Of a stretch of DNA of 35,447 nucleotides, positions 1 through 32,459 are shown piece by piece. Position numbers and translations under genes: made by a program. How positions within the stretch are numbered: the stretch's first letter is position 1; each line of letters opens with the position of its first letter. The notes beneath the pieces were generated by a model that did not search any database, had not been told where the DNA came from, and saw only the letters and a list, made by a program, of their open reading frames with translations. The stretch lies in NCBI GenBank assembly GCA_017410455.1, contig JAFQQT010000033.1, positions 1-35,447 of the forward strand, written 5' to 3'. This stretch comes from Clostridia bacterium (GTDB lineage Bacteria; Bacillota; Clostridia; Christensenellales; Aristaeellaceae).

Positions 1-3000
1 ACAGGAAGCCCCAGTCGTAGTTGCTGACAGTACAGCTCTCCACGGTGATGCTCTTGATGCGGTTGGTGGTAATGGCGTAGTACGTACCATCAACGAAGTT
101 CACGTTCTTAACCGTCACAGCACTGGTAGTGCCGGTCACGGAGATGTTGCCGGTGTACTCGAACTCCGCACCGTCGATGGTGACGCTCTTGTTGACCGTC
201 ACGTCCTCAGTGATGTTCGCCAGGAAGACGATGGTGTCGCCAGCCTCAGCTGCCTCGATGGCGTCAGTCAGCGTCGCGTACTTGGTCTCGCCAATCTGAG
301 CAACCGCCTCGAGCACAGTCAGCGTGCCGGGAACAACCTCGATGGCGTAAGCGTCGCTCATGAACACATACGCATTCGCGGTGATCTCGTACTCGCCCAC
401 GCCCTCAACCGTCACCTCGGGAGTCTCGACGACGAGCATCGTGCCGTCCTCGGCAACCTCAGCGAAGTCGGTGGTGTAGGTGAACTCAGGCATCTCGTTG
501 CCGTCAACCACGGTCACATCGTCGAAGGTGACGGTGATCAGAGGCTTGACGGTCCAGGTGCCGTCCTCGTTGTCAACAGCCTTGTAGCCCTCGGCGCAGT
601 ACTGCTGCACATCCTCGGTGTAGGTGCCGCCGTACAGAACCATGGTGCCATTGACGCTGGCAACGGTGGTCTGGTTGGAGGAGTAGTTACCATCGTAGAT
701 GGTCAGGCTGGAGCCAGCCTTCACAGCGATGGCATTGCCGCCATTATTGCTCTCGCCCTTCACAACCGCATCGTTGATCACGACGTCGGAGTCAGCATCG
801 CCGCCGACGTTGATGCCGTAGTTGGTGAGGCCGCTTGCCTTCGCGGTGAAGCTGCCGCCGTTGACAGTCACGTTACCGCCCTCGGCACGCAGAGCGTGAC
901 GCACGCCGGTCACATCGACATCAGTCAGGGTCAGGTCAACTTCGCCGATGTACTGGCCATACAGCAGCAGCAGCGCAGCGATCTTGTCGTCGTCGGAGCT
1001 GGTAGCGGTCCAGGTCTGGACGGTGCTCCACTTGGTGTTGGTGCCGTTCAGGGTACCATTCTTGATCTCAACCGTGCCGTTGACGATGAAGAAGCCGTTG
1101 AAGTCGACGGTGTAGCCCGCCAGGTCAACAGTCAGATCGCCAATGACGGGGATCGCGATGGACTGGCCAAGGTAAGTGGTGTCCTCGGTGATGTTGGTCA
1201 GGACAACAACGGGATCCGTGTTATCCGGCTCAAGCGCAGCCTTGACCGCCTCGGTCAGGGTCTCGTACTTGGTCTCGCCGACCTGAGCAACCCACTTGCC
1301 CACAACCACGGTCCAGGTGTTATCGCCGGTCTTACGGGCGATGTAGCCCTCGGCAGTCGCGTCGTAGGTCTCACCAAGCACAAGCTTGTTATCGGCAGTC
1401 TGACGGAAGAAGTGCGCTTCCTCAGGGTTCATGCCGGTGAACGTGCCGCCGTAGATGGTGATGTCGCTCAGCGAATAGTCGATGACGGAGTTCTTGTACT
1501 CGCCATTGTGGTTAACGATCAGGTAAGAATCACCGTTGGAATCCAGATCCTGGGTGAAGTTACCCGCGTTGATAACCAGCTGGCCGCCATGAGAGACATA
1601 CAGGAACAGGTTGGTGCCGCTACAGGTTGCGCAGCCCTTGTTCACCCAGGAACCGCCAGTCACGTTGATGACGGAATTGGGAGAAGCCGCGTAAACGCCG
1701 GAAGCCATGCCGTACACCGTGATCAGGCTGTCGCCCACGGTGTCGCAGATCTCCAGGTTCGCGCCAGCGTTGGCGAAGAACAGGCCATGAGCGACCGTGC
1801 AGGAGTTGTAGGTCTTGCCGTTCCAGGTGAAGGATTCGTGGCCGTTGTAGGTGATGTTATGACCGTTCAGGTCAAACTTCACGTTCACGCCAACAGCGTT
1901 GAAGATACCGGGGTTCAGATACTTACCATTGCTGTTGACAGCCGCCGGGATGGAGTCGATGTAAGAGCCATCGACCACAATGTCGCGCTCCAGCTTGACG
2001 TCGCGGCCAGCCAGCAGTTCAGCCTTGAGCCACTCGACGTAGTCCCAGACCACAAACACATTCTCGCTCTCCTCGATCGCGATGTACTTCTCGCTCGCGA
2101 GGAAGTTGGTGTCCGCGCCCTCAGCCGCGTTGGCCTCGGGGTTGAAGCCGTGGAAGGTACCGCCGGTGACCACGATCTTCGCAGAACCATCGGCGTAGTT
2201 CGCGTCGATGCAGTTCAGCAGGTAGCCCGTGCCATAGCCGGAGTCAGTCACCTTGAACTCGCCGCCGGTGACGGTCAGCGTGCCCTTGGTCACAGAGGCC
2301 ATGGTGGTGTCGCCGGTGTAGGTACCGCCGCTGATCGTCAGGTAGCCAGCGGAAGAACCGTCGGAAGCGCCCAGGACGAACACGTAGTCGTTGTTCGTGA
2401 TGGTGCCGCCGGTGATGGTCACATTCGCGCCATCCTGGATGCGGAAGGCCGGGTACACATCGCCATCCGTCGTCACGGTCAGACCGGTCAGGTCATATTC
2501 CTTGTCTTCGGAGATCACGATGTCGCGCAGCAGGACGATTTCCTTCACGTCGCCCGCGTTCGCAGCCTCAACAGCCGCGTCGAAGGTCTCGTACTTGGTC
2601 TCGCCGACCTGCGCAACCCACTCGCCCACAACCACGGTCCAGACGTCGCCGACCTTACGGGCGATGTAGCCCTCGGCCACGGCGTTGAACGCGGTGTAGG
2701 GAGAGGTGCTGTCATCAAGGGTCGCCTCGGGGTCGTAATCAAACGTACCGCCGGTGATCTTGATGGTGGACTTGCCCTTGATGAAGTAAGCAGAATTCTG
2801 GCGATCCTTCTCATTACGCATGATCAGGCAGGAGGCGTCTTCAGCGGTGGTCTTGAACTCGCCGCCGTTGATCACCAGATCGCCGGAATGGGTCGCCCAC
2901 AGCAGGCTGCCATAGTTGTCAGCAACGTACTTACCGCCGTTGATGGTAACCACAGTGTCCGTACCAGTGGACCAGATCACGGGCGCATCAGCCGTGTTCG

Positions 3001-6000
3001 TGACAAAGCCAGTGCCAACGCTGTCCGTGAAGGTCACCTTGGCATTGTCCATGATCATGAACGTGTATGCAGCCGCATTGTTGATGATGGAGTGACCGTT
3101 CAGGTCAAGCACAGCATTCACATTGGAGGGAGAATTCACGCCATCGACGCGAGTGCCGCCAATGTAGACGATGCTGGGATTGTACGCATCGTAGTTGCCG
3201 AAGCCGGTCGCGCCGCCATGAGCGTACACAACGTCGTCAGCATCGTAAACGATGTCAGCAATCAGCTTGACCGTCTCGCCCGCGGTGCAAGCCTCGAGCG
3301 CTTCCTTCAGGGTCATGTAAGCCTTGCCGGTTTCCACGACCTCGGCCACATACGCAGCCATCGGGAAGACCTTGTACTCTGCCTCTGCATTGTACACAAA
3401 CGCGCCGGTGGGATCGACGTACGTGCCGTCGTCGTCATTGGTGAAGATGATCTGATAGCCTTCCGTGTTGGAGGCGGTCAGGGTGTTCTCGCCGGTGACG
3501 TTCAGCTCGTAAGCCTCAGTCATCTTGCGAACCACGATGGGCATCTCAGCCGTGATGGTGCAGCCGGAGACGGTCAGTTCCGCCGCGACGTCGCCGTCAG
3601 CGCGGATGCCGTAGCCAGTCGCCTCGATCGTGCAGCCGCTGATGGTCGCGCCATTGGAGTTGCCAAGGCTGATGCCATTCTTGCAGCCCTCGACCGTGCA
3701 GTCGCTGATCACCAAACCGGACTCCACATTCGCCAGCTGGATCAGGCTGTGCAGGTTGTCAGCCTTGCAGCCGGTCACCGTCAGGTTGGTGCAGCCGCCG
3801 GTGTACTGCTTGATGCCAGCAATGTTGTTGCCGCCGTCCGTATCCGTGAAGGTACAGCCGGAGATGGTCACATTGTTGGTGTAGCGGGTATTGTTGTCGC
3901 CGCTCTTGCCCAGGTAGATGAACGCGCCAGCGGTGAGGGTGTCAGCGCTGAAGTTCACATTCTGGATGGTGAGCGCGGCGGTCTCGTAACGCTTGCTCTT
4001 GCCGTTGACCGTGATGGTGCCGGTAAGCGTGTTGTCGTTACCTTCGATGGTGATCTTCACGCCGTCCTTCTGCTCAACGGTGACATCCTCGGTGATGCCG
4101 GTCAGCATCACGACGGTGTCGCCATTCACAGCCGCGTCGACGGCTTCCTGGAGGGTGGCGTACTTCACGTCGCCAACCTGAGCGACATACTCACCCGCGA
4201 CCACGTCGTAGGCGTCATCCTCATTCAGACGGAAGATGCAGCCGTCGTCCAGGGAGTACATCTCGGCGTAGTTGCTGCCGAAGGTGCCGCCGGTGATGGA
4301 GATGGCTTCAACAGCCAGCTCGTCCGCGCCGTAGCTGTACAGATCGGTGATCGTACCGCCGGTGACGGTCACGGTTTCGACAGCGGTCTTGTTCTTGCCG
4401 CCAGTCAGAGCCACATCGCCGTCGAGCGTGCCGCCGGTGATGTTGATCTTCGTGTTGGCCATGCTGTAGCCGTAGCTGTAGGAGTAGACAGCCAGCTTGT
4501 AATCAGCGCTCTCGCCAGTACCGGTCAGGGTGCCGCCGGTGACATTCAGCGTAACGCTGGGCGCCACGGAGGTATCGCTGCCCGCCAGCTGGATCCACAC
4601 AGCGCGGGTGCCCTTCACTTTGCCGCCGTTCACGGTGACAGTGTTGGCGTTGCTGCCCGCGATCTGACGGATCGCGTAGTTGCCGTCGTTGATGACTTCG
4701 CCGTCATCGATGGTCAGCGTCGCAGCGCTGTTGATGGAGTTGTTGTCGATCGCATAGCAGGCATGGCTCATCTTCGCCGTGCTGTTCACGATGCTCGGGC
4801 CGGACACGGTCAGCGTGCCACCGTTGCTGATGGTGTAGTTGCCCTTGGTATAGGCAGTATCCGCCGCACCGGTGTAGGTGAAGTCGATCTTGCCCTCGCC
4901 GGTCAGGGTCAGATTGCCCTTGTTGGTAATCATCGCCTCGCCCGCCACAGTGGTGCTGTAGGAAACCGTGTTGCCGCCCAGGTCGATGGTGACCTGCTTG
5001 GTGTTCACCACGGGAGCGGTGAGCTCGTGGCCAACAAGCACGGTGATGGTCTCGCCGCCCTCGGCCGCGTCGATGGCTTCCTGGATGGAAGCGTACTTCA
5101 CGTCGCCGATTGCAACGACCCACTCGCCCTCAATCACGGTCCAGATGGTGTTATCCTCGTTCGCCTTGGCGATGTAGCCCTCGGCGACGAAGCCAGCCTC
5201 TTCGACGTCCATGCCGAAAGTGGCGTCAGTGTCAGCGATGAAGGCGGTCAGGTCACGGCCCTCGGAGGTCTCGAAAGCGCTGATGCTGTTCACATGGCCG
5301 CCGGTGATGGAAGCCGTGAACGCCGCGCTGGGCTCGAGGTACAGGTTGGCAACGGTGCCGCCCGTGATGGTCACGGAACCGACAACGTCCTTGGTGTTAC
5401 GCTCGGTACCGTCGGAGGGGTTCTGCAGCCAGATGCTGCTCACAGAGCCGCTGTTGACAGTGACGCTGTTCGCGTTGGTCTCGCTGTTGCAGAACAGACG
5501 GATGCCGTCGTAGTAGTTGGAACCGGAAACCTTGATGGTCGCGCCATTGACTTCCACAGTGGGAGCGCCGCTGGTGGAGTTGTTGTCAATCGCGTAGCCG
5601 ATCTGGTTGGACGCAGTGGACTTATTCTCCACCGTGAACTCGCCATCCAGGTTCAGGGTGCCGGCGTTCAGGATGGTATTCACCGCGTAGGACGTGCTGC
5701 CCGCCAGCTGGTGGTCGCACACGATGGCGCCCTCGCCGGTGATGGTCAGGTTGCCCTTGTTGGTGATGACCGCGTACGCAGCCGCCTCAGCGGGGGTACC
5801 GGTGATGGTGTAGCCCGCCAGGTCCAGAGTGATCACGTCGTCCGCATCCACGGTGACGGTGTCCGTGATGGTCACATTCTTCAGCAGGACGATGGTGTCA
5901 TCTTCCTCAGCCGCTGCCACAGCATCGGCCAGCGTCCAGTAACCGTCTTCGTCGATCTGTGCGACATAACCGTAAATCACGGTGACGCCTTCGTAGGTGG

Positions 6001-9000
6001 GCAGACCGTCAGCACCATACTGCTTGCCACCGAAGAGCTGATCGAAAGGAATCGCTGCCTTACAGTGGGACGTGCAGGTGCTGTGGTCGTAATCAGCAGG
6101 CAGACCATCATAGGCATAGCCCGCCTCAACACGCATACCGCGACCATTATTGTACCCAGAAGTAGTAGGATCGCAGTAGTGGTAATTAGCCCAGGAACCG
6201 TAAGTAACCGTCACGTCAGTACAGGTGATACCGTACTTGGACGTATCGGGGACAGTCTTGCCGTCGATCGTGGTGCATTCCTGGAGGCGGCCAATGATCA
6301 TACCGGACATACGATAATTGTAGTAATCGTAGGAAGCGGTGCAGTCATTGTAGACATCCAGTCGGCAAGCAATATCAACATTCTCGAAGGTGTAGGTCGC
6401 GCCGGGTTCGCCCTGACCCACAACGCCGCCGATGGAGGAGTCAAAGGAACCCCACAGGCCAGCCAGCGTAACGCTGCTCGTGATGTTGATGTTCTTGAAG
6501 GTGTAGTTGCCATCACCAGACCACGCGATGATACCGCCGCAGCCATTGTTATAGGTAGCGAAGGTGGAGTCGGTGATGGTGATGTTCTCAAAGACACAGG
6601 TGCCGGTAGCGCTGCCGGTGATACCACCAACGTCGCCGCCCTCAACCAGGCACTCCGCGCCCGTGATGGTCAGGTTCTTGATCGTCGCATCGTTGATGTT
6701 CGCGAACAGGCCGATGGAGCCGTAGACGCCCCACTCGTAACCAAGAGCCCAACCGTTCTGGTACATGTTGGAGATCTTGTTGCTGCCGCCATCGAAGGTG
6801 CCTTCGAAAGCATGGCTGTTATCGCCGATGGGATCGAAGGTGACGCGTTCGCCGTTCTCATCCACCTCGCTGAGGTCGATGTCGTTCATCAGCTTGACAG
6901 TCTTATCCTTGAGCGTGTTGCCGCCCTCAACGATCGCATCCAGGCGCTTGAGGTCGTCCCAGGTGTAGATCTCGTAGCTCCACTCGCCAACGGTGAAGGA
7001 GCCATCGCCGTTGTCCGTAACAGCATAGGCAGGATCAACGAAGTTGGTCTCCACGCCTTCAGCCGCGTTGTTCGCGGGATCGAAGCCGTAGAAGGTACCG
7101 CCGGTGACCACGATCGCCGCAGAACCGTCGATGTAGTTCGCGTCGATGCAGTTCAGCAGGTAATCCATGCCGTAGCCGGAGTCAGTCACCTTGAACGAAC
7201 CGCCGGTGATGGTCAGCGTGCCCTTGGTCACGGAGGCCATGGTGGTGTCGCCGGTGTAGCTGCCGGACTCGATGGTCAGGTAGCCAGCGGAAGAACCGTC
7301 GGAAGCGCCCAGCACGAACACGTAGTCGTCGTTCGTCATGGTGCCGTTCTTCACGGTCACCTCAGCGCCGCCCTGCACGCGGATCATCGGGTAGACGTCC
7401 TTGCCGGTGACTGTCATGCCGCCCAGGTCGATGGTGACGTTCTTCTCGATCACCACGGGCTCGGTGAGCTCATGCTCAGCGATGATGGTGATGATCGCAT
7501 CAGGCTCAGCCGCGTCGACGGCTTCCTGGAGGGAGAAGAACTTGTCTTCGCCGATCTGCGCAACTTCACACGGATAGTAAGGAGGCTCGACCACGTAGGA
7601 GACATTCTCCTCCATGTTGAAGCTGCCGCTCTCGCCCAGCTTGAGCTCGCCGACAACGCCAGCCTGGTAGGCCGTGCCGCTTACCACTTCGCCAGTAATC
7701 GTGCTGTTCTTGATGGTGATGTCCTTGTTGTAGCCGGTGCCATTGCCAGCAACCCAGGCCGTCCAGCCATGATCGGCAGTAGAGCCAATGAAGCCGCCAG
7801 CCACGTTGGTGCCGGTCACATTGCCGGAAACCGTGCAGCCGTCAAAGGTAACAGCGCTGGAGTAAGAATGCTCGGTCAGACGGCCCACAAAGCCGCCCGC
7901 GATGTTGGCGGTCACATCGCCCATCGCCTTACAGTTGGTGTAAGAAGCGCTGGTGATGTGGTTGCCAACGAAGCCGCCAGCAACATGAGAACCGGTCACA
8001 TCCACATCAGCGGTACAGTTGGTGTAGGTCTGGCCCCAGGTATAGGCACGACCCACAAAGCCACCAACCTTGGCGTGGTAGTTCACGGGGTTCGCACTGT
8101 CGCTGCAGCTCTCGGTGATGGTGCCGACCACAGAGCAATCCTTGTAGCTGACAACGCTCTGAGAAGTGCCAACCATACCGCCGACACGGGTCTCGCCCAG
8201 ATAATCGGTGGTCACGTCGAAGTCGATACCGGTGATCTTGACGTCCTCGACAGTGTGGCCAGTGTCACTTCTCCAGAAGTAACCCACCAGACCGCCGACA
8301 AAGGCGCTCGTAGCATCAACATCGATCTTGAGGCCGTTGATGTTACCGTCCTTCAGGGTGATGTATCCATAGTAAGTGTAGGGAGCATAGCCACCCGCAA
8401 AGACCGTACCGGCGCTTGCTTTGATGGATACGTCACTTACGTTGAAATCTTCAGCCGTGAAGGCCATTCGGGTATTGCCATTGTTGGAGATGTTCTGACC
8501 GCACACATAGCCGTTGATCGCGGCAGCACGAACTTCCTGAGAATCGGAAGCCTTCGCGTCAATGGTGAGATCAGAAACATTGATGCCGCTCATGTTGGCG
8601 GGATAGCTGTAGCCCACAACGCCGCCGACAAGGGCAGTGCTGGAAGCAGCTTCCACGTCAATGGTGCAGCCGCTGACCGTGATGTTCTGGAAAGCAAGGT
8701 CAACGATGCTGGGAGTCGCCTTGTCGCTGTCCGCGATACCGACAACCGCAGCCGCACGAACCTTCTTGCCAACAGCAGTGATGCTGACATTCTCCATGGT
8801 CAGGTTCTTGATAACAGCATTCTTAATGCCACCAAACAGACCCAGGAACTGATCAGTGTCGGGAGTGTTGACATCGATCGTCATGTTGCTGATGGTGTGG
8901 TTGCCGCCATCGAAGGTGCCCCAGAAGTAGTTGGTCGTATTGCCGATGGGAGTCCAGTTGATACCGGCCAGGTTGATGTCATCCATCAGCTTGACGGTCT

Positions 9001-10912
9001 CGCCATCGAAGGTGATGCCGTAATCATTGACCATGCTCCGGAAAGTTTCCAGATCATCGACATCCCAGATCTCGAAGGTCACTGCCATAGGCAGCGTCAG
9101 CTGAGTCTCCTCATCGATGCGGGCGATCACCTTGTTCAGCAGAACGCCGGTCTCGCTCGTGGTGAACTCAGTCGCAGCATCGGCCAGCAGCATGATGGAG
9201 CCGCTGTTCACGATGCCCTCGGCACTGTTGAACTCATCATGGACATACACAGCCTGCGTGCCGCCGTAAACATCGCTGTTCACAAGCTGCAGCCACGCGC
9301 TGTAGTTGCCCTTGATCCAGATCTCAATGCCGCTCACGCCGCCCTTGATGTCACAGTTGGTCGCCGTGCCGCAGGGAGCGGAAATCAGCATACCAGTACC
9401 CGCAGCGTCAATGGTAACATTCTCCATGTTGCCAATGACCAGCGTGTTGGCATCGCCGCAGTTGTAGGTCTCGATACCATTGGTCAGCGCATCGCCCTTG
9501 ATGGTCACATTCTTGATGGAACCAATGTGGACTTCAGTGCCCGACTGCACAACAATACCGCCGATGGTCTTGTTGGCATCGCCCTTGCCCTGAACATCGA
9601 TGACCAGGTCTTCGAAGGACTCGACATTCCAGGCCTTGATGGCAGCGGTATTGCTTGCATGGACAATCGTACCATTCTTGATGGTGGGATTGTTCTTCAG
9701 GCTCATGCCGCCCCAGGCGTTGCGAGTCGTCAGGGTGAAGCCGCCCAGATCCAGGGTGATGGGTGTTTCGATCTTCAGCTGATCCGTACCATAGTCGATG
9801 TCAGCCGTCAGACGGATCGTGGCGCCGTCCTGCGCATTCGCAACCGCATTCTTCAGCTCGTCCTTGGTAGCAACTTCGTAGAGCTCGCCCTTCACCAGAA
9901 CGATCAGCCGATCGTAGGTGCCGTTGCCGTCCCAGTCAAGCCTGAAGGTAACAGAGCCCGGCTCGGCGAAAGGATGCTTGATCGTCGAAGTGCCGGATTC
10001 CGGAGTCACGGTCGTCCACGTCTCGCCATCCAGCCTCTGGACGGTGAACACAGTCGAGTTCTCGCCGACCGTGAACTGCATGTAACCACGCGTGTCAATG
10101 GAAGTGGGATCGGTGAAGGTCACCGTCACGCCACGCTCGGTACGGGTATAGCCAAACTCCGTGGGAGCCATGATCGTAACGATCTTCGGCTTCACGACTT
10201 CGGTGTTCTCCTCAGTCTCGTCGGAGCTGTCGCCCTTACGGTGATCGTAAACGGTCGCGCCTTCCTCAGCGTTGATGCCGCTGAACCAGCCGCCTTCGAG
10301 CGTCAGGTACGCGCCCTTCTGGACCGTCACGACGTCATACTGGCCGTTCCAGATGGTGACCTCGGTGGCGTTGAACGCCTTGCCGACCGACCTGGAGGTC
10401 GCCAGCAGACCGAGTTCCTCATCAGAGGGCGCCATGTTGTTCACACGCAGCTCGGCGTTGAACGTAACGTCCTTGATGTCCATCTTGCTCGGAAGCAGAC
10501 TGTGGCCGCCGAAGTAGAAGACGTCGATCGAGTCGCCGGACTTGACTTCGCTTCTCTTCGTGCCGATGGTGCCGTTCCTGACTGTCAGGTCCACGGCGTT
10601 AATGCGGGTGCCGTAGCCGCAGTCCCAGGTATGGCCGTTCAGATTCAGGGTGACGGACGGCACGGTGTTGTCGTCGGAAACCGACAACTGCACCTTCCCG
10701 TCCGCATCCTTCAGCAGCACGATGGTATCGCCATCCACAGCAGCCTCGAAGGCGGCCTGCAGGGTGACGTACGGCGTGTCGCCGATCTTCGCAACGTAAT
10801 CCGTCTCAACGACGACAACCCCGTTCGAGTCCTCAGCGCTTACAGGTGCAATGGATAGCACCATGATAAACGCCAGCATCAGACTCAGGAAACGCTTAAG
10901 TGTACTACTCAT
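1..10912 (-). CDS. Giant secreted repeat-rich surface protein (beta-helix-like adhesin), C-terminus beyond the left edge
   Basis: The minus strand is open from the ATG at 10912 to the window edge, at least 3,637 codons. GGAGGG lies 5-6 bases before the ATG. Residues 1-26 are a signal peptide (K6 R7, hydrophobic core, APVSA cleavage). A module of the type VAQIGETKYxTLxxAVxAA-GDTIVLL-xITEDVTV-TIDLxGYTV recurs about ten times. Its copies start near nt 10795, 9880, 7570, 5970, 5130, 4195, 3360, 2630, 1300 and 305, with a degenerate one near 2040. Between modules lie GGT-rich, beta-helix-like strands. Residues about 755-1018 contain GLUG-like VGGFVG...NC repeats. Residues about 3455-3534 resemble an MBG/Ig-like domain. 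Such proteins are usually exported and act in adhesion or glycan binding at the cell surface; that role is inferred. No sortase motif, SLH or other anchor can be seen because the C-terminus is missing. Confidence 0.9.
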   Translation of the reverse strand, partial: MSSTLKRFLSLMLAFIMVLSIAPVSAEDSNGVVVVETDYVAKIGDTPYVTLQAAFEAAVDGDTIVLLKDADGKVQLSVSDDNTVPSVTLNLNGHTWDCGYGTRINAVDLTVRNGTIGTKRSEVKSGDSIDVFYFGGHSLLPSKMDIKDVTFNAELRVNNMAPSDEELGLLATSRSVGKAFNATEVTIWNGQYDVVTVQKGAYLTLEGGWFSGINAEEGATVYDHRKGDSSDETEENTEVVKPKIVTIMAPTEFGYTRTERGVTVTFTDPTSIDTRGYMQFTVGENSTVFTVQRLDGETWTTVTPESGTSTIKHPFAEPGSVTFRLDWDGNGTYDRLIVLVKGELYEVATKDELKNAVANAQDGATIRLTADIDYGTDQLKIETPITLDLGGFTLTTRNAWGGMSLKNNPTIKNGTIVHASNTAAIKAWNVESFEDLVIDVQGKGDANKTIGGIVVQSGTEVHIGSIKNVTIKGDALTNGIETYNCGDANTLVIGNMENVTIDAAGTGMLISAPCGTATNCDIKGGVSGIEIWIKGNYSAWLQLVNSDVYGGTQAVYVHDEFNSAEGIVNSGSIMLLADAATEFTTSETGVLLNKVIARIDEETQLTLPMAVTFEIWDVDDLETFRSMVNDYGITFDGETVKLMDDINLAGINWTPIGNTTNYFWGTFDGGNHTISNMTIDVNTPDTDQFLGLFGGIKNAVIKNLTMENVSITAVGKKVRAAAVVGIADSDKATPSIVDLAFQNITVSGCTIDVEAASSTALVGGVVGYSYPANMSGINVSDLTIDAKASDSQEVRAAAINGYVCGQNISNNGNTRMAFTAEDFNVSDVSIKASAGTVFAGGYAPYTYYGYITLKDGNINGLKIDVDATSAFVGGLVGYFWRSDTGHTVEDVKITGIDFDVTTDYLGETRVGGMVGTSQSVVSYKDCSVVGTITESCSDSANPVNYHAKVGGFVGRAYTWGQTYTNCTADVDVTGSHVAGGFVGNHITSASYTNCKAMGDVTANIAGGFVGRLTEHSYSSAVTFDGCTVSGNVTGTNVAGGFIGSTADHGWTAWVAGNGTGYNKDITIKNSTITGEVVSGTAYQAGVVGELKLGESGSFNMEENVSYVVEPPYYPCEVAQIGEDKFFSLQEAVDAAEPDAIITIIAEHELTEPVVIEKNVTIDLGGMTVTGKDVYPMIRVQGGAEVTVKNGTMTNDDYVFVLGASDGSSAGYLTIESGSYTGDTTMASVTKGTLTITGGSFKVTDSGYGMDYLLNCIDANYIDGSAAIVVTGGTFYGFDPANNAAEGVETNFVDPAYAVTDNGDGSFTVGEWSYEIYTWDDLKRLDAIVEGGNTLKDKTVKLMNDIDLSEVDENGERVTFDPIGDNSHAFEGTFDGGSNKISNMYQNGWALGYEWGVYGSIGLFANINDATIKNLTITGAECLVEGGDVGGITGSATGTCVFENITITDSTFATYNNGCGGIIAWSGDGNYTFKNINITSSVTLAGLWGSFDSSIGGVVGQGEPGATYTFENVDIACRLDVYNDCTASYDYYNYRMSGMIIGRLQECTTIDGKTVPDTSKYGITCTDVTVTYGSWANYHYCDPTTSGYNNGRGMRVEAGYAYDGLPADYDHSTCTSHCKAAIPFDQLFGGKQYGADGLPTYEGVTVIYGYVAQIDEDGYWTLADAVAAAEEDDTIVLLKNVTITDTVTVDADDVITLDLAGYTITGTPAEAAAYAVITNKGNLTITGEGAIVCDHQLAGSTSYAVNTILNAGTLNLDGEFTVENKSTASNQIGYAIDNNSTSGAPTVEVNGATIKVSGSNYYDGIRLFCNSETNANSVTVNSGSVSSIWLQNPSDGTERNTKDVVGSVTITGGTVANLYLEPSAAFTASITGGHVNSISAFETSEGRDLTAFIADTDATFGMDVEEAGFVAEGYIAKANEDNTIWTVIEGEWVVAIGDVKYASIQEAIDAAEGGETITVLVGHELTAPVVNTKQVTIDLGGNTVSYSTTVAGEAMITNKGNLTLTGEGKIDFTYTGAADTAYTKGNYTISNGGTLTVSGPSIVNSTAKMSHACYAIDNNSINSAATLTIDDGEVINDGNYAIRQIAGSNANTVTVNGGKVKGTRAVWIQLAGSDTSVAPSVTLNVTGGTLTGTGESADYKLAVYSYSYGYSMANTKINITGGTLDGDVALTGGKNKTAVETVTVTGGTITDLYSYGADELAVEAISITGGTFGSNYAEMYSLDDGCIFRLNEDDAYDVVAGEYVAQVGDVKYATLQEAVDAAVNGDTVVMLTGITEDVTVEQKDGVKITIEGNDNTLTGTITVNGKSKRYETAALTIQNVNFSADTLTAGAFIYLGKSGDNNTRYTNNVTISGCTFTDTDGGNNIAGIKQYTGGCTNLTVTGCKADNLHSLIQLANVESGLVISDCTVEGCKNGISLGNSNGATISGCTIEATGYGIRADGDVAAELTVSGCTITAEMPIVVRKMTEAYELNVTGENTLTASNTEGYQIIFTNDDDGTYVDPTGAFVYNAEAEYKVFPMAAYVAEVVETGKAYMTLKEALEACTAGETVKLIADIVYDADDVVYAHGGATGFGNYDAYNPSIVYIGGTRVDGVNSPSNVNAVLDLNGHSIINNAAAYTFMIMDNAKVTFTDSVGTGFVTNTADAPVIWSTGTDTVVTINGGKYVADNYGSLLWATHSGDLVINGGEFKTTAEDASCLIMRNEKDRQNSAYFIKGKSTIKITGGTFDYDPEATLDDSTSPYTAFNAVAEGYIARKVGDVWTVVVGEWVAQVGETKYETFDAAVEAANAGDVKEIVLLRDIVISEDKEYDLTGLTVTTDGDVYPAFRIQDGANVTITGGTITNNDYVFVLGASDGSSAGYLTISGGTYTGDTTMASVTKGTLTVTGGEFKVTDSGYGTGYLLNCIDANYADGSAKIVVTGGTFHGFNPEANAAEGADTNFLASEKYIAIEESENVFVVWDYVEWLKAELLAGRDVKLERDIVVDGSYIDSIPAAVNSNGKYLNPGIFNAVGVNVKFDLNGHNITYNGHESFTWNGKTYNSCTVAHGLFFANAGANLEICDTVGDSLITVYGMASGVYAASPNSVINVTGGSWVNKGCATCSGTNLFLYVSHGGQLVINAGNFTQDLDSNGDSYLIVNHNGEYKNSVIDYSLSDITIYGGTFTGMNPEEAHFFRQTADNKLVLGETYDATAEGYIARKTGDNTWTVVVGKWVAQVGETKYETLTEAVKAALEPDNTDPVVVLTNITEDTTYLGQSIAIPVIGDLTVDLAGYTVDFNGFFIVNGTVEIKNGTLNGTNTKWSTVQTWTATSSDDDKIAALLLLYGQYIGEVDLTLTDVDVTGVRHALRAEGGNVTVNGGSFTAKASGLTNYGINVGGDADSDVVINDAVVKGESNNGGNAIAVKAGSSLTIYDGNYSSNQTTVASVNGTMVLYGGTYTEDVQQYCAEGYKAVDNEDGTWTVKPLITVTFDDVTVVDGNEMPEFTYTTDFAEVAEDGTMLVVETPEVTVEGVGEYEITANAYVFMSDAYAIEVVPGTLTVLEAVAQIGETKYATLTDAIEAAEAGDTIVFLANITEDVTVNKSVTIDGAEFEYTGNISVTGTTSAVTVKNVNFVDGTYYAITTNRIKSITVESCTVSNYDWGFL

Positions 10913-11279
10913 GTTTTCCCTCCATCTTGTAGCTTCAACGTGGCCCGAACAAGCCCTTTCCTCCTGCGCCGGCGAAAGTCCACAGGAACAAAGAGCTCAC
11001 CCGAAGCCATATTTTCAGCATGCCATTTCGCACCGCAAGATGCAATGTACAAAATGGCACACTTTTACCACATAATAATACCACTTTCCAGGCCACATAT
11101 CAAGACCTTTTGGAAATTTCTTCGAAAAAATACTTCTACCTGGCGTGAACCGGGCAGAAGAAACAGAATGCGCAACACCAGTTCATGCAATGCATATTGG
11201 CCGTGCAGTGACCTGTTCCTTTTCCGGTTCAGCCCCCTTTCCTGATGCCTCTGCCAGCACTCCGGCGTCTTCGCGGCAT
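10913..11279. other. Intergenic region upstream of the giant gene
   Basis: This stretch of about 370 bases holds the minus-strand promoter (11075-11103), its long leader and the ribosome binding site at 10918-10923. The short open frames across it lack ribosome binding sites and known motifs, and I see no riboswitch family that I recognise. The part from about 11110 to 11279 lies beyond the stop of the XRE gene, and no clear terminator is visible there. Confidence 0.6.
11075..11103 (-). promoter_or_regulatory. Sigma-A-type promoter of the giant surface protein gene
   Basis: On the minus strand TTGATA (11103-11098) is followed after 17 bases by TATTAT (11080-11075); each hexamer is one base off consensus. 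Transcription would start near 11068 and give a leader of about 155 nt before the ATG at 10912. Experimental start mapping is not available from sequence. Confidence 0.6.
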
Positions 11280-11570
11280 TCATTCGGATGCGTCCGGCGC
11301 TTCCTGCAGCAGCAGCAGTCCGGAAGCCCTTTCGGCCGGCATGGGCTCAGGCCGGGGATCCCCATCACACTCGAGCAGTTCACTCGGCCGGATGGACATC
11401 GCCCGGCAAAGCTCCAGCAGCGTCTTCAAGCTCAGCTTCCGGCTGCCCCGCTCGATGTGGCTCAGCCAGGACACCGACATTCCCGCCCGACGCGCCAGGT
11501 CCGCCTGCGTCAGATTCTTCGTATGGCGCAGGGCACGGATGCGCTGGCCAATGGCAACGTAATCGATCAT
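11280..11570 (-). CDS. XRE-family helix-turn-helix regulator (96 aa)
   Basis: The protein is a single Cro/CI-type HTH domain at about residues 6-62 (IGQRIRALRHTKNLTQADLA...MSVSWLSHIERG), followed by a charged tail ending in PDASE. I chose the ATG at 11570 because GGAGGTG lies 5-6 bases upstream; an upstream in-frame start would add 24 residues that run through the promoter. The gene diverges from a second XRE gene at 11700. Two perfect palindromes overlap its own promoter, so autorepression is likely (inference). Its targets are unknown; the neighbouring giant surface protein gene is a possible one. Confidence 0.85.
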   Translation of the reverse strand: MIDYVAIGQRIRALRHTKNLTQADLARRAGMSVSWLSHIERGSRKLSLKTLLELCRAMSIRPSELLECDGDPRPEPMPAERASGLLLLQEAPDASE

Positions 11571-11601
11571 GATACACCTCCGCAGTTCATGAATTATCAT
11601 C

Positions 11602-11630
11602 ATTATACGATATATCGTCCATATTGTCGA
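11602..11630 (-). promoter_or_regulatory. Promoter of the 96-aa XRE gene
   Basis: On the minus strand TCGACA (11630-11625) and a perfect TATAAT (11607-11602) are separated by 17 bases. The ATG is 31 bases beyond the -10 box. The two palindromes described separately overlap the -35 box and fill the spacer. Confidence 0.7.
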
Positions 11631-11639
11631 TATATCGAC
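11607..11639. promoter_or_regulatory. Twin palindromic operators between divergent XRE genes
   Basis: Two perfect palindromes share the core CGATATATCG: ACGATATATCGT at 11607-11618 and GTCGATATATCGAC at 11626-11639. Their centres are 20 bases apart, about two helical turns, so two dimers would sit on the same DNA face. One covers the -35 box and the other lies between -35 and -10 of the 96-aa regulator's promoter. This is the expected layout of a cooperatively bound autorepression site; binding is inferred. Confidence 0.7.
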
Positions 11640-11699
11640 CATCGCGTAATTTCTCCTTTGTTACCCTACCCTTATGAAATCCATCAGGGAGGCATCGCT

Positions 11700-11942
11700 A
11701 TGACCACCTTGGACTGTGTCAGGCGCCGGTTTATCGAGCTGTGCAACGAGCGAAATCTCGCCTTTTACGCCCTGGCCATCAGCGCAGGCGTACACCCCAG
11801 CACCATGAAAAGCATCATGAACGGCCAGAGCCAGAACCCCGGCATCGTCACCATCAAGAAGCTGTGCGACGGGCTGGACATCTCGCTGACGGAGTTCTTC
11901 AACACAGACTACTTCCGCGCGCTGGAACAGGAAATCAAATAA
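11700..11942 (+). CDS. Small XRE-family regulator (80 aa)
   Basis: An HTH domain occupies most of this 80-residue protein (about residues 8-68; VHPSTMKSIMNGQSQ is the recognition-helix region), ending in EFFNTDYFRALEQEIK. The ATG at 11700 has GGGAGG 7-8 bases upstream; the longer open frame beginning upstream is not supported. It diverges from the 96-aa XRE gene across the twin palindromes. A possible weak promoter is TTGTCG (11624-11629) with TAATTT (11647-11652). It is exactly as long as, and 34/80 identical to, the regulator at 34522-34764 inside the mobile element. Targets are unknown. Confidence 0.85.
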   Translation: MTTLDCVRRRFIELCNERNLAFYALAISAGVHPSTMKSIMNGQSQNPGIVTIKKLCDGLDISLTEFFNTDYFRALEQEIK

Positions 11943-11949
11943 CGGCAAA

Positions 11950-11987
11950 GGACGGCTCTCACGCATCAGAGCCGCCCTTCTTCTGTT
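11950..11987. terminator. Hairpin terminator between convergent genes
   Basis: A 10-bp stem (11950-11959 with 11968-11977, one mismatch) and an 8-base loop are followed on the plus strand by TTCTTCTGTT. It lies 7 bases after the plus-strand XRE stop and just beyond the minus-strand esterase stop, so it may serve both genes. Confidence 0.65.
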
Positions 11988-12906
11988 ATCCCAGATGCTT
12001 CCTGAGGAACGCATCCACCTCGTCCAGCGCCGCATCGCAGCAGAAGCCGCGCCAGCCGTGGTCGCCGCCCAGCACCTTGATGAACTCCGCCTCCTTGCCC
12101 AGCGCGCGAAGGGCCTCCCAGAGGTGCACGCTCTGCTGGAAGTTGACCGTGCGGTCGCGGCTGCCGTGCATGATGAGCACCGGGGGCGTGGACTTGTCTG
12201 CGCGCAGGTAGCTCTGAGGCACGGTGGCCGCCGCCAGCTCCGGGTTCTCCGGCACGCTCAGGTGGCCGATGAGCCAGCCCTCGGGGCAGTCCGCGCTGAC
12301 GTGCTCGCCGCAGCTGGGCTCGTAGCCCATTTCGGCAACGACCGTGGGGCCATACCAGTCGACAATGCAGCGGACCGACGCGTCGCCCTCATCGCCGGGG
12401 GCGTTCAGGCAGTCGTTGCCCGTAAAGCCCACCATCAGCGCCGTGTGACCGCCGCTGGAGTCGCCCCAGACGGCGACCTTCTCCGGATCGAAGCGGTACT
12501 TCTCCGCGTTGGCGCGCAGGAAGCGGATGGCCGTTTTGACGTCCTCGGTCTGGGCGGGGAACTTCGCCGTGGTGGAGGGGCGGTACATGACCAGCGCCAC
12601 GCAGTAGCCCCGCTGACACATGCGCACCATCTCCGGCAGGTGGATGTACACGTCCTGGCGGAACCAGGCGCTGCCCTGCACGAAGACGATGAGCGGGTTG
12701 TCATGCCGGTCGTTGCGGGGGGTGAGGTACTGGATGGTCAGGCGCTCACCGTCGCGCTCGGCATAGACGATATCCGGCCGGAAGGCCACGCCGAAGCCGA
12801 AGCTGTCCGTCCAGCGGACCTCCCGCACGCCCTCAGGCAGGGCAGGGTTCTCCGGGAAGTTCTCATCCTCATAGGAATAGGGCGTCAGAATCTCGCGGGA
12901 CATCAT
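11986..12906 (-). CDS. Alpha/beta hydrolase, carbohydrate-esterase/lipase type
   Basis: This 306-residue hydrolase has an oxyanion-type VQGSAW motif at about residues 76-81, the nucleophile elbow GDSSG (S150), an acid in HGSRDRTVNF and a histidine in GGDHGW near the C-terminus. That is the complete catalytic set of the BD-FAE/esterase-lipase group, whose members often deacylate plant polysaccharides or remove feruloyl groups. No signal peptide is seen, so it would act in the cytoplasm. GGAGGG lies directly upstream; the second ATG (12903) has the better spacing, so the true start may be three bases later. It is the last gene of a long minus-strand unit, 9 bases after the Dabb gene. The exact substrate is not determinable from sequence. 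Confidence 0.85.
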   Translation of the reverse strand: MMSREILTPYSYEDENFPENPALPEGVREVRWTDSFGFGVAFRPDIVYAERDGERLTIQYLTPRNDRHDNPLIVFVQGSAWFRQDVYIHLPEMVRMCQRGYCVALVMYRPSTTAKFPAQTEDVKTAIRFLRANAEKYRFDPEKVAVWGDSSGGHTALMVGFTGNDCLNAPGDEGDASVRCIVDWYGPTVVAEMGYEPSCGEHVSADCPEGWLIGHLSVPENPELAAATVPQSYLRADKSTPPVLIMHGSRDRTVNFQQSVHLWEALRALGKEAEFIKVLGGDHGWRGFCCDAALDEVDAFLRKHLG

Positions 12907-18813: not shown

Positions 18814-20016
18814 TCACCGCAGCAGTTCCTGCGGCACCTCCGCCGCCATGCGCTGATACCCCTTCTTTGAGGGGTGCAGGTGGTCGCCGGAGTCATATTC
18901 GGGCAGGAACCAGTCGGGCCGCGCCGGGTCGCGCAGGGCGCGGTCGAAGTCAATGCAGCCGTCGATCAGGTCGGTCGTGCGGATGAAGTCGTTGTATGCG
19001 TGGCGCATCTCCTGCCGGAAGGGCGCGTCCGTGCGCCAGCCGCCCATGGGGATGAGCGTACCAACATACACCTTCAGCCCCATCTGCCGCGCCTGAGCGA
19101 TGTAGGTTTTCAGGCCGTCGATGAGTTCCTCCACGGTGGGCAGGTCGCTCATGGGGCGGAAGATGTTGACCTCCTCGCCCACCGGGTGGATGATGTCGTT
19201 GATGCCCTGCTGGATGATGACCGCGTCCGCGCCGCTGACCGGCAGCTCATGCAGGAAGCGGTGGCTGCCCATCAGGCCGTAGCTCTCATAGGTCAGGCAG
19301 GAATACTCCCGCAGGATGCGCGTGCCGCTGGCCGCCTTGCGGACGATGGCCGTGCGGTTGAACCCCTCCTCCCGGCAGCGGATTTGCAGATCGTCCGGCC
19401 AGTCCTGGGCGGTGATGGAGTCACCGTAGCAGACGATGGTGCGATTTTGATGCGCGGTCAGGATGGACACGTCCGACAGGAAGTAGTTCAGCTTCGTCGC
19501 GCGGGAGGTGTTCACGTCGATATCCACCGTCTCCGTCTCGTCGCCGTTGGCGTAGAGGCCGCCGGAGAGCGGGCCGCAGGTGAACACCACCGAGCGCATG
19601 AGGGTGAAGTCCGCCAGATAAAAGCTGACATACACCGTTTCCCCGGCGCGGATATGAACCTCCACCGGGTCGCTGGCAGCGCTCTCCCCCGCCCCGATGG
19701 TGACAGAGCGCTCCCCGCCAAAGGTCACCGGCCAAAAGGCTCCCCCTTTGGGGGAGCTGTCACCGCAGGTGACTGAGAGGGTCTCTCCGGGGGAGCTGTC
19801 ACCGCAGGTGACTGAGAGGGGTTCCCGCACCAGCAGCGTGGTCTTGTTGATGGTCACCGGCTCCGTGCCGCAGTAGTTGTCGAAGGTCAGGCGGATCGCA
19901 CTGCCGTCAAAGGGCACATGGATGGGGTAACGGATGGTGATGTTCTTGGCATAGCGCTCCGGGCGGTTCTCCGCAATGGAAACGGCGTTGGCCCAGATGG
20001 ATGACCAGTGCTGCAT
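18814..20016 (-). CDS. SGNH/GDSL hydrolase, carbohydrate-esterase-like, two-domain (400 aa)
   Basis: A beta-sandwich-like domain (about residues 1-180) is followed by an SGNH hydrolase domain: block I GDSIT with S200, the glycine block around ASGTR, the asparagine block in QQGINDI, and D378/H381 in SGDHLHPS. This matches the two-domain acetyl-xylan esterase layout (CE2/CE3-like), so deacetylation of plant glycans is likely but inferred. No signal peptide is visible. The ATG at 20016 has GGGAGG 9 bases upstream; a longer in-frame start is not supported. Residues 67-94 are encoded by a duplicated palindromic repeat that interrupts the N-terminal domain. The gene lies 23 bases after the cysteine-rich unknown gene, probably in one operon. 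Confidence 0.88.
   Translation of the reverse strand: MQHWSSIWANAVSIAENRPERYAKNITIRYPIHVPFDGSAIRLTFDNYCGTEPVTINKTTLLVREPLSVTCGDSSPGETLSVTCGDSSPKGGAFWPVTFGGERSVTIGAGESAASDPVEVHIRAGETVYVSFYLADFTLMRSVVFTCGPLSGGLYANGDETETVDIDVNTSRATKLNYFLSDVSILTAHQNRTIVCYGDSITAQDWPDDLQIRCREEGFNRTAIVRKAASGTRILREYSCLTYESYGLMGSHRFLHELPVSGADAVIIQQGINDIIHPVGEEVNIFRPMSDLPTVEELIDGLKTYIAQARQMGLKVYVGTLIPMGGWRTDAPFRQEMRHAYNDFIRTTDLIDGCIDFDRALRDPARPDWFLPEYDSGDHLHPSKKGYQRMAAEVPQELLR
19739..19820. repeat. Palindromic REP-like element inserted in frame in the SGNH gene
   Basis: The element combines a hairpin GCTCCCCC-TTT-GGGGGAGC (19739-19757) and GTCACC-GCA-GGTGAC. Its right portion, 32 bases at 19750-19781, is repeated without a mismatch at 19789-19820, an offset of 39 bases or 13 codons. 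It encodes LSVTCGDSSP twice. I recall very similar sequences scattered between genes in many gut Clostridia, so this looks like a dispersed REP/MITE-like element that kept the reading frame. Confidence 0.8.
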
Positions 20017-20039
20017 TTCTCTCTGCCTCCCAGGGTTGC

Positions 20040-20675
20040 TCAGTAGGTTTCGGCCTCGCACAGGAGCTCTCCCAGCTGGCCGTCGGCGTCCGTCGCAAAG
20101 ATTTCCAGGGCTTCAAACGCGTTGTCGTAGTCGGACAGGGCTGCTGTGGGCAGGCACTGCAGGAACTCCTCCATGCTGCTCTCATTGCGTACCTCAATGG
20201 TCAGCCAGGCGGCCTCCTCCGGCACGGCCACGCGCTGCCAATGGGGCTGCCACTGCAGCCCCTCCGCCGGAATCTCCCCGTATACGGCCAGATTCCCGTG
20301 CAGTCGGCTGTCCACCAGGGTGTGCTGTTTACCGCAGGCGCAGCAGGTCGCTCGGATGACCCGCACATCGATGAACGGCGGCGGTTCCGGCAGATCAAGC
20401 GGCTCCCAGCGGCCAAAGAGCCACCGTTTGCGCATCAGGACGGTCTTCCCCTCCTCATTTCTGCGGGGGCGGACGATGAAGCCCCGCATCTGCGCATCCG
20501 CGGCGGCTTCGTTGGCGTCAATGGCCGCCTGCTCCTCCGGGGTAAAGACGGACTGCTCCAGCATAAAGCGCAGGCTGCCGCAGGGACAGCACAGGCGCAG
20601 GCTGACATGGATCTCACTCGCCTCCTGCAGCTGTGTAATGGGCTTCAGATGGGGCGGGACGGGCAGATTCTTCAT
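20040..20675 (-). CDS. Unknown cysteine-rich 211-aa protein
   Basis: I do not recognise the family. It has two cysteine clusters, CCPC at residues 29-32 and CCAC at residues 111-114, which together could bind one zinc ion as a ribbon. Between them lies a basic stretch (RPRRNEEGKTVLMRKRW). The acidic C-terminal half (SMEEFLQCL...DADGQLGELL) is predicted to be alpha/beta. There is no signal peptide. The ATG at 20675 has GAGGAGGT 7 bases upstream and a good promoter (20708-20736). The SGNH esterase gene follows after 23 bases. A nucleic-acid or regulatory role would fit a zinc ribbon but is speculative. Confidence 0.75.
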   Translation of the reverse strand: MKNLPVPPHLKPITQLQEASEIHVSLRLCCPCGSLRFMLEQSVFTPEEQAAIDANEAAADAQMRGFIVRPRRNEEGKTVLMRKRWLFGRWEPLDLPEPPPFIDVRVIRATCCACGKQHTLVDSRLHGNLAVYGEIPAEGLQWQPHWQRVAVPEEAAWLTIEVRNESSMEEFLQCLPTAALSDYDNAFEALEIFATDADGQLGELLCEAETY

Positions 20676-20809: not shown

Positions 20810-22042
20810 TTACAGCACCAGCCAGCAGGGCCGGACCACCTGATCCCTGCCTTCCTTGTCGATGACAAAGTCCCCTGCCAACCCGTCCACGACCGCCTCG
20901 TACTCGCCGCGGAAGCCGGTCACGGTGACCCAGCCGTCCTCGTCCGTCATGAGGGTCTCCTTCGTGTGCCAGTCGCGGCAGATGCGCTGCCGGAGCGCGT
21001 CGTAGGCCGGCTTGTGGGTGCCGTTGAGGCGCACGAGGCCCGCCGGGGCCCCCAGCCACGCGCCGTCGCAGAAGTCCCAGTTGGTGAAGGCCTCCACCTG
21101 CGGGTGGGCAAAGAGGGTATCGATCATGCGCAGGAAGTCCATCGCCTGGCGCTCCTCGCCCGCCGGGGTGGTGGGCCACTCGGGCACCTGCCAGTCGTTC
21201 AGGTCGACGATGTGCCCGGGCATCAGGTCGCCGGACACGAAGGTGTTCTCGGTGAAGTGGATGGGCATGTTGAACCGCGCGAAACGCTCCAGCACCTCAT
21301 GGAGCTTCTCGTCGCCCCAGTAGCCCTGATGCTGGTGGCTCTGGATGCCGATGACGTCCATGGGCACGCCCGCAGCCAGGCACTCTGCGATCAGCCCGGC
21401 GTACTTCTCCGAGGTGTTGAAGTCGTTGAGCAGCAGCGTTGCGCCGGGATCCATCTCCCGCGCCATGTCGAAGAGCGCCTTCACCAGCGGCACGCGGCCC
21501 ATCTCCGCGCACAGGCGGGTGATGGCGTTGTCCTCCTTGTCGAAGACGGGCATGATGACCACCTCGTTGATCACATCCCACATGCGGATGTGCCCCTTGA
21601 AGGCGCTCATTTCGCGGCGGATGCGGCCCAGCTGGTTCTCCAGCACTTCCTGATTGCTGCGGCCCAGCAGCCACTTGGCGCTGACGGTGTGCCAGCACAG
21701 GGGATGACCCTTCATGGCAACGCCGTGCTCCCGGAGGAACTCCGCCGTGCGCAGGGTCGATTCCTCCTGCGTCACGCCCTCCACACGCTCGTAGCGCCCC
21801 TGATAGAAGGGGAGCGTGCCGAAGTTGAACAGCTTCGACCAGCTCTCCCACATGCGCTCGAGCAAAGCCCTACGGGCCGGGGGCGTGGCGGGGTCGAGCA
21901 TCTCGCTGAGCCAGAAGATGTTGCAGCCGAACTTGAACTCGTGACTGCGGAGCTCCACGGTGACCTTGCGGCCGGCGATGGGGGTGTTGCCGTCCATCAG
22001 GCGGATGCGGCAGGTTCCCTTGCGGTGTGCGTAACGATCCAT
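20810..22042 (-). CDS. GH10-family endo-beta-1,4-xylanase-like glycosidase (410 aa)
   Basis: A TIM-barrel GH10 catalytic domain covers about residues 15-345. Visible motifs are KGHPLCWH (111-118), the acid/base glutamate E160 in WDVINE, GIQSHQH (232-238) and the nucleophile E265 in HFTEN. Both catalytic glutamates are present. An N-terminal beta-rich segment (RIRLMDGNTPIAGRKVTVEL) precedes the barrel and a short beta domain follows. There is no signal peptide, so it probably acts on imported xylo-oligosaccharides in the cytoplasm (inference). GGAGGG lies upstream of the ATG at 22042, 12 bases after the preceding hydrolase gene, so the two form an operon ended by the terminator at 20739-20771. 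Confidence 0.88.
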   Translation of the reverse strand: MDRYAHRKGTCRIRLMDGNTPIAGRKVTVELRSHEFKFGCNIFWLSEMLDPATPPARRALLERMWESWSKLFNFGTLPFYQGRYERVEGVTQEESTLRTAEFLREHGVAMKGHPLCWHTVSAKWLLGRSNQEVLENQLGRIRREMSAFKGHIRMWDVINEVVIMPVFDKEDNAITRLCAEMGRVPLVKALFDMAREMDPGATLLLNDFNTSEKYAGLIAECLAAGVPMDVIGIQSHQHQGYWGDEKLHEVLERFARFNMPIHFTENTFVSGDLMPGHIVDLNDWQVPEWPTTPAGEERQAMDFLRMIDTLFAHPQVEAFTNWDFCDGAWLGAPAGLVRLNGTHKPAYDALRQRICRDWHTKETLMTDEDGWVTVTGFRGEYEAVVDGLAGDFVIDKEGRDQVVRPCWLVL

Positions 22043-28123: not shown

Positions 28124-28327
28124 ATGAGAGACAAGAGCTTTATCACTGCCCCCGAGCTGGCGGAGATGCTGGAGATGTCTGAGGGACATGCTTACAAGGT
28201 CATCCGCAAGCTCAACGACGAACTGGCCAGCAAGGGCTTCCTGACCTTCCCCGGTCGCGTGCCAAGGAAGTATCTGGCAGAGCGATGTTACGGCCTGAGC
28301 GAAGGAGTGATTCCCGTTGAAGGCTGA
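28124..28327 (+). CDS. Small HTH DNA-binding protein, putative excisionase (67 aa)
   Basis: A single helix-turn-helix (FITAPELAEMLEMSEGHAYKVIRKLNDELASKG, residues 6-38) is followed by a short wing-like strand FLTFPGRVPRKYLAERCYG. Proteins of this size and sequence style sit directly before tyrosine integrases in many Clostridia mobile elements and act as directionality factors or regulators. The ATG at 28124 has AGGAGG 8 bases upstream and the consensus promoter about 65 bases before it. Its last 11 bases overlap the start of the integrase gene. The excisionase role is inferred from context; a transcriptional regulator is the alternative. Confidence 0.8.
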   Translation: MRDKSFITAPELAEMLEMSEGHAYKVIRKLNDELASKGFLTFPGRVPRKYLAERCYGLSEGVIPVEG

Positions 28328-29555: not shown

Positions 29556-29736
29556 GATCCGGGTCGGTAAGTTTGAAAGTGACCGGCTCAGCGTTGAGCT
29601 GAAGCGCCTGCGGGAAGCTCTGCTGGCCGCTGAGTGCCCCACGGACGTCACGCCGCTGCTGCTGGAATGTCGGGCGCTGCTGGAGCAGGTCATTACCATC
29701 ACCCAAGGAGGCGATCCGCATTGCTCTACATCGTGA
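29401..29736 (+). CDS. MobC-like relaxosome accessory protein (111 aa)
   Basis: A ribbon-helix-helix-like N-terminus (RNKTVSFWMSPEEYRNLLARVKITGLAKNEFMIRALL, about residues 10-46) is followed by a helical C-terminal part. This is the pattern of MobC-type proteins that bind oriT and assist the relaxase. GGAGG lies 6 bases before the ATG at 29401; the ATG one codon earlier is a closer-spaced alternative. The gene starts inside the integrase gene and shares about 155 bases with it in another frame. Its end overlaps the next small gene by 16 bases. It presumably acts at the oriT near 32518-32576, although MobV relaxases of pMV158 type usually work without MobC. Confidence 0.75.
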   Translation: MARYMDHNRTRNKTVSFWMSPEEYRNLLARVKITGLAKNEFMIRALLGQQIEIRVGKFESDRLSVELKRLREALLAAECPTDVTPLLLECRALLEQVITITQGGDPHCSTS

Positions 29737-29906
29737 GAGTCTACGAGGAAGACATGGTTCACGAGTACGAATACGGCCTGCCGGAGCACGCCCGTGAACA
29801 TCTTCATTGGGAGAAGTCCCCTGCAGAGCTGTACGTCTACCGCAGCGGCGAAGAAACTCTTATGGAAACCAACGAACAAAAAAAGAGCCATCATCCTGGC
29901 AGATGA
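29721..29906 (+). CDS. Small unknown protein of the mobile element (61 aa)
   Basis: It starts with TTG at 29721, with AAGGAGG 9 bases upstream, and overlaps the MobC-like gene by 16 bases. The sequence is acidic and aromatic at first (LYIVRVYEEDMVHEYEYGLPEHAREHLHWEK) and ends in a lysine/histidine-rich tail. The strong ribosome binding site and tight overlap support a real gene. I do not recognise a function; conserved small ORFs in this position occur in related elements. Confidence 0.6.
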   Translation: MLYIVRVYEEDMVHEYEYGLPEHAREHLHWEKSPAELYVYRSGEETLMETNEQKKSHHPGR

Positions 29907-30011
29907 TCGACTCTGTTGATAACACCCACGGCAGCTGCCGCAGGCATCATCGCTTGCAACACTATGATACCGCAGCAGCTGCCGAAAATCAAGAGAAAGA
30001 AGGGAATTTTC

Positions 30012-32390: not shown

Positions 32391-32459
32391 TGATTCTGAG
32401 ATCGGCAGAGCCGATATAATGCATTTATTGCATTTACTGTTGTGGTGGCAGAATCATCA
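32388..32459. repeat. Nested inverted repeats after the replication gene
   Basis: TGATGATTCTG (32388-32398) and CAGAATCATCA (32449-32459) are a perfect 11-bp inverted pair. Inside are the hairpin ATCGGC-AGA-GCCGAT (32401-32415) and a direct repeat TGCATTTA (32420-32427 and 32429-32436). The left arm includes the replication gene's stop codon. Together with the hairpin CGGCTCC-CGCA-GGAGCCG (32471-32488) this looks like an origin or oriT flank. Confidence 0.6.

Follow-up and report, generated by a model that had tools for sequence, protein, structure and literature searches.

A giant gene of a Clostridia bacterium, its predicted serial beta-helices and a tiny peptide gene behind the C-terminal domain of its homologue

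The left third of contig JAFQQT010000033.1 of a Clostridia bacterium (assembly GCA_017410455.1, family Aristaeellaceae) is filled by one giant open frame, which raises the question of what kind of protein it encodes, how this protein ends and how it might be held at the cell. The window analyzed here is the whole contig (35,447 bases; C17 of genome G000), one of 93 in an assembly of 3.3 Mb. The frame starts with ATG and runs through 3,637 codons without a stop, because the contig begins at window base 1. This agrees with the original prediction, which had described a single frame of more than 3,600 residues with a signal peptide; a 26-residue peptide ending in VSA can indeed be read by eye. 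The accompanying statement that the size is unusual even for Clostridia adhesins does not hold, as module-bearing frames of the same family reach 5,426 and 7,952 residues, and the size is not exceptional. We think that the giant protein is most likely a rod of serial beta-helices that adheres or binds polysaccharide; that this rod is an exported giant fibre with at least ten right-handed beta-helices in a row, binding polysaccharide or cells, appears fairly probable.

The protein is organized by about ten irregularly spaced copies of one module, as had been predicted. A profile built from 17 copies, 10 of them from the window, was compared with all six frames of the window and gave 10 matches at 52-79 bits, all in the giant frame, while the best of 200 protein shuffles scored 4.7 bits. 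An earlier model of nine copies had recovered the tenth (residue 353) at 21.8 bits, with 20 shuffles at 8.7 or below. The consensus is roughly VAQIGETKYxTLxEAVxAAxxGDTIxLL, and the units that the module copies delimit measure, in order, 304, 773, 533, 282, 311, 279, 244, 442 and 329 residues. In the remainder of its own genome no further copy was found (one later scan scored 20 of 33 candidates), and the module occurs in 50 of 300 genomes of the family (E 1e-5). As no Pfam or NCBIfam family of its own reaches the cut-off, such proteins will probably escape automatic annotation. The predicted MBG-like segment is a single MBG_2 domain, the sole Pfam match over cut-off in the 3,637 residues, and the NCBIfam scan of the protein gave no family over cut-off (TIGR03804 reached 18.1 bits, below its 19.45). 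The GLUG-like segments were borne out in part: ten motifs of the form [GA]G[FLVMI][VIT]G are present (500 shuffles averaged 0.75 and never exceeded 4), but the Pfam Glug model is not among the families that match the protein at E up to 1.

The units of this gene turn over. Where BLAST aligns two window units across more than 100 residues, their identity is about 28-55%, and two stretches from units 3 and 8 are 89% identical at the DNA level, a sign of repeat duplication or exchange within the gene. The best homologue of the protein, L019 (contig SVGU01000046.1 of Clostridiales bacterium isolate SIG366, same genus), conserves the order of units 5, 6 and 8, has no close counterpart of unit 7, and contains two adjacent units that are 98.4% identical over 514 bases. 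That the frame is instead an assembly artefact or a repeat chimera would fit the fragmented assembly and the contig break inside a repetitive gene, but 3,637 stop-free codons and the unit order shared with a contig of another genome make this very improbable. Within the gene, units are gained, lost and duplicated.

Each module copy was predicted to lead into a beta-helix-like stretch, and this could be supported for two of the ten units. The structure model covers the units from heads 5 and 6, and by model and fold comparison both are predicted to share one fold, a right-handed beta-helix, which for these two units argues against unrelated folds behind the repeated modules. Each module copy would then cap the start of a new beta-helix, with a strand, a short helix and a strand followed by the coils. 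Together the units would build a long rod on the cell surface or close to it, and this rod would bind other cells or polysaccharide from capsules, mucus or plant cell walls. In their predicted fold the units resemble surface adhesins with a right-handed beta-helix (PfbA, UpaB, SRRP binding regions), which have one beta-helix each, in contrast to the serial beta-helices proposed here.

The fold matches include GH28, PL6 and epimerases, and the giant protein could thus alternatively be a chain of polysaccharide-degrading domains (GH28, PL6 or pectinesterase-like) that acts alongside the nearby hemicellulose enzymes. Genes for a BD-FAE-type esterase, a GDSL esterase and a GH10 xylanase lie on the same minus strand and suggest hemicellulose degradation. 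The module profile has the N-terminal starts of pectinesterases as its three best matches in the PDB (E 0.003), where pectinesterases are 6 of the 24 sequences listed and unrelated enzymes score nearly as well; Pectate_lyase_5 is found by Pfam in 2 of 17 module heads at a best E of 0.0034. The two-unit profile had no sequence match in the PDB at E up to 0.01, and no beta-helix sequence family in Pfam is matched over cut-off in the whole protein. As no enzyme family of Pfam or NCBIfam exceeds its cut-off in the 3,637 residues, and as the divergence between units is more like that of binding or stalk modules than of ten catalytic domains, we consider the enzyme chain unlikely.

The homologue also indicates how the protein may end. 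A search of 100 genomes with the C-terminal 1,395 residues of the available protein gave matches at E 1e-10 in four, its own genome included. L019 carries the last 1,642 residues and the stop, with 52% identity across 1,298 columns, and its continuation into additional modules speaks against a stop immediately past the window. Its last approximately 275 residues constitute a C-terminal domain (CTD) for which neither Pfam nor NCBIfam has a family over cut-off, and whose two halves are related to each other (hhalign comparison of half-profiles, probability 96%, E 1.6e-9, 74 columns). The stop is followed by a 39-residue peptide gene, an HPrK-like gene, a signal-peptidase-like gene and an ATP-binding cassette (ABC) transporter. 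Contig C69 of the window's own genome starts 20 bases before a matching peptide gene, continues with the same three genes and is 79% identical to L019 over 3.2 kb, after which the two diverge. By this shared synteny, the left ends of C17 and C69 would flank the missing 3' part, and the giant protein probably ends, as L019 does, in a duplicated CTD. Short DNA repeats, 83.5-88% identical, occur in tandem on C69 (L079 11501-11674) and as one stretch on the opposite strand of the window (19736-19820).

Codon choice suggests that the giant gene may be strongly expressed. TTA, CTA and TCA together occur once in its 3,637 codons, where the codon use of six neighboring genes, a small sample, predicts about 19; in seven translation-factor-type frames of the same genome the count is 5 over 4,553 codons, with three frames lacking them altogether, and the giant gene resembles the EF-G-like gene in several amino acids. 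We weighed whether an antisense frame of 3,618 codons is a second gene and decided against it: such a frame requires only that the sense gene avoids these three codons, which expression-type codon choice can explain.

Several observations weigh against a surface-bound, binding rod. Foldseek alignments across the whole two-unit model are poor (template modelling score about 0.2, root-mean-square deviation above 12 Å), and the model loses confidence between the units, with a block predicted local distance difference test (pLDDT) value of 41-62 over residues 241-310. The same fold serves enzymes too, so that fold matches cannot separate binding from catalysis, and Pfam detects no known adhesive domain in the protein. 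The signal peptide was read by eye, the 3' end is placed in the gap between C17 and C69 by synteny only, and the codon argument is weak, given an all-codon correlation of 0.925 with the EF-G-like gene compared with 0.915 with the neighbors. Finally, the anchor that the predicted surface location led one to expect was not found: the available 3,637 residues contain no LPXTG-type motif and no SLH, CWB2 or other anchor family of Pfam, the 1,642 residues of L019 contain no SLH or CWB2 repeats, and the last 50 residues are free of sortase motifs in all 20 CTD proteins examined, L019 among them. The genome itself has sortase matches, of which four of five are over cut-off.

To our knowledge, it is poorly understood how large Clostridia surface proteins without sortase signals stay on the cell. 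The rod could be retained through the CTD and not by a sortase, and a CTD coupled to a conserved tiny gene would offer a direct handle on surface retention. Searches at E 1e-5 found the CTD in 15 of 300 genomes of the family (10 of 50 genera, 18 matches) and in 16 of 391 genomes of the class (33 matches). In the family, 15 of 18 matches place the end of the domain 0-6 residues ahead of the stop. The three exceptions are the initial part of a gene interrupted by a stop codon, a match that ends 43 residues short of the stop, and one whose available stretch contains no stop. The domain recurs, mostly strictly C-terminal, on otherwise different large proteins, some of which in the class carry it near the N-terminus (L098, L106), and signal peptides are visible by eye where the start is available.

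For the gene behind the CTD, 25 of the 51 matches were considered: 15 of 18 in the family, leaving out G111 (one broken gene in two pieces) and G296 (contig end), and 10 of 33 in the class, most of them with good scores. The 23 left out in the class include G711 and G645, where the domain is not C-terminal, and G594 C21 (contig end). In 21 of these 25 loci a peptide gene of 29-41 codons, recognized by eye, starts on the same strand 8-180 bases past the stop, with a motif of about MKxYExxExEVIxFxxEDVITxS; the peptide sequences are related and share a motif around DVITxS. The four loci without it are G152, G321 (where only 182 bases are available), G594 C23 and G240 C42, the last of which encodes a 999-residue protein with a PqqD gene in place of the peptide. 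A hold-one-out test with 21 peptides (20 of those counted, one near-duplicate being dropped, plus that of C69) recovered 20 at E 0.0012 or better and the remaining one, of G099, at 0.21. The best unrelated small frame had E 0.59 among 4,846 small frames from 429 kb, part of it counted twice, a control drawn from the surroundings of CTD genes and a few other regions rather than from whole genomes. A further member outside the profile adjoins a CTD fragment in G594. Pfam has no family at E 0.1 for the five peptides scanned, and none of four reaches a cut-off in NCBIfam.

The genes further downstream point to peptide maturation, which is tied to the surface protein by position only. With profiles seeded from some of the counted loci, an HPrK-like gene was found downstream on the same strand, no more than 6 kb away, in 7 of the 11 family loci for which at least about 6.8 kb of sequence is available, and in 1 of 12 class loci. 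A signal-peptidase-like gene was found in five of the seven kinase-bearing family loci and in the one kinase-bearing class locus. These names are weak, as the NCBIfam matches of both lie far below the cut-offs, and Pfam has no match for the L079 copies. One locus has PqqD over the Pfam cut-off, and in G219 radical SAM, HPrK-like and NHLP-type exporter genes (L114 4594-9245) lie about 4 kb behind the CTD protein. A second HPrK-like/S24-like pair of the window's own genome, on C64 (L136 6372-12228), is joined by ligase-like, carrier-like, acyltransferase-like, Cys-rich peptide and PqqD-like genes, most of them named by eye, and looks like a peptide-maturation cluster; the N-terminus of its Cys-rich peptide weakly resembles the CTD-linked peptides (E 0.074), and the 16 kb examined contain neither CTD nor module. 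The kinase-like genes close to a tiny precursor-like peptide, joined in one locus by PqqD, recall the HprK-related kinase/PqqD maturation systems (TIGR04352, TIGR04353, ScmC), from which the present loci differ in that kinase and PqqD stay far below the curated NCBIfam cut-offs and the peptide directly follows the gene of a large protein.

It could therefore be argued that CTD, peptide and kinase-like cassette are the main system, with the giant protein as cargo or target of a maturation like that of ribosomally synthesized and post-translationally modified peptides (RiPPs) and the rod secondary. The frequency of the peptide within 180 bases of the stop, the kinase-like gene in most family loci and the PqqD, radical SAM and exporter genes would fit this, but outside the family only 1 of 12 CTD loci has the kinase, the C64 cassette shows neither CTD nor module in the 16 kb examined, and no direct link between peptide and protein is seen, so that we give this explanation little credence. 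As a tentative possibility beside the rod of serial beta-helices, a Clostridia-wide two-gene unit is conceivable, consisting of a large exported CTD protein and a leader-like peptide of 29-41 residues, often joined in the window's family by HPr-kinase-like and signal-peptidase-like proteins; the peptide, which might be phosphorylated or carry another modification, would assist in sorting, attaching or licensing the protein via its CTD in a non-sortase display. If true, such a unit would be undescribed and would tie surface display to a peptide-maturation cassette, and the CTD-peptide pair is the part that most deserves a second look.

Among the closest known systems are Giant1-4 of Apilactobacillus kunkeei. 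These proteins of 3,000-8,000 residues are extracellular, thought to be loosely attached, have a beta-solenoid similar to L. reuteri SRRP and diversified mostly by short intragenic recombination (PMC12863079). The giant protein shares the size range, signs of recombination inside the gene and, as predicted, the beta-solenoid and an extracellular location; it differs in its ten serial module heads, in the stretches of GLUG-like and MBG type and in the C-terminal domain, which in the homologue is another one. With fibrillar adhesins, as defined in PMC9210967, it has the great length, the repeated region, an MBG stalk domain and a putative rod shape in common; unlike in these, Pfam detects no known adhesive domain, and a sortase motif was not found. 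Because of the missing adhesive domain we do not file it as one.

Table 1. Features of the window and two peptide genes on related contigs; positions refer to the window unless a locus is named.
Feature	Residues	Position	Strand	Remark
Giant gene		2..10912	-	open frame, ATG start, 3,637 codons, stop-free; 3' end beyond contig edge
Signal peptide		10835..10912	-	26 residues, last three VSA; by eye
Module head 1	40	10595..10795	-	profile
Module head 2	344	9695..9880	-	profile; absent from first seed
Module head 3	1117	7385..7564	-	profile
Module head 4	1650	5777..5965	-	profile
Module head 5	1932	4925..5119	-	profile; first modelled beta-helix begins here
Module head 6	2243	3992..4186	-	profile; second modelled beta-helix begins here
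Module head 7	2522	3164..3349	-	profile
Module head 8	2766	2438..2617	-	profile
Module head 9	3208	1094..1291	-	profile
Module head 10	3537	122..304	-	profile; contig edge cuts its unit
MBG_2 domain	3459-3532	317..538	-	PF18676, 33 bits vs cut-off 25, one copy
GLUG-like stretch	763-1088	7649..8626	-	8 of 10 motifs
Stretch from unit 8		2102..2401	-	89% identical to 7040-7339
Stretch from unit 3		7040..7339	-	partner of 2102-2401
Antisense open frame		2..10858	+	3,618 codons; taken as by-product of minus-strand codon choice
Ribosome-binding-site-like GGAGGG		10918..10923	-	by eye
Promoter-like site TTGATA-17-TATTAT		11075..11103	-	TG before second hexamer; consensus match only
XRE-type regulator frame		11280-11570	-	small; by eye
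BD-FAE-type esterase		11986-12906	-
GDSL esterase		18814-20061	-
GH10 xylanase		20810-22042	-
Integrase, DUF3987/NrS-1-type polymerase, Mob_Pre and TnpV-like genes		28317-34307
Peptide gene		L019 4969-5088
Matching peptide gene		L079 21-122		own contig C69

The promoter-like site sits about 160 bases upstream of the giant gene, and three such sites were found on both strands of 10800-12050, with 0.8 expected. A small frame of the XRE regulator type lies just upstream of the giant gene. The genes at the right end of the window look like an integrated mobile element, and the G+C content falls to 40% at 26-27 kb, ahead of them.
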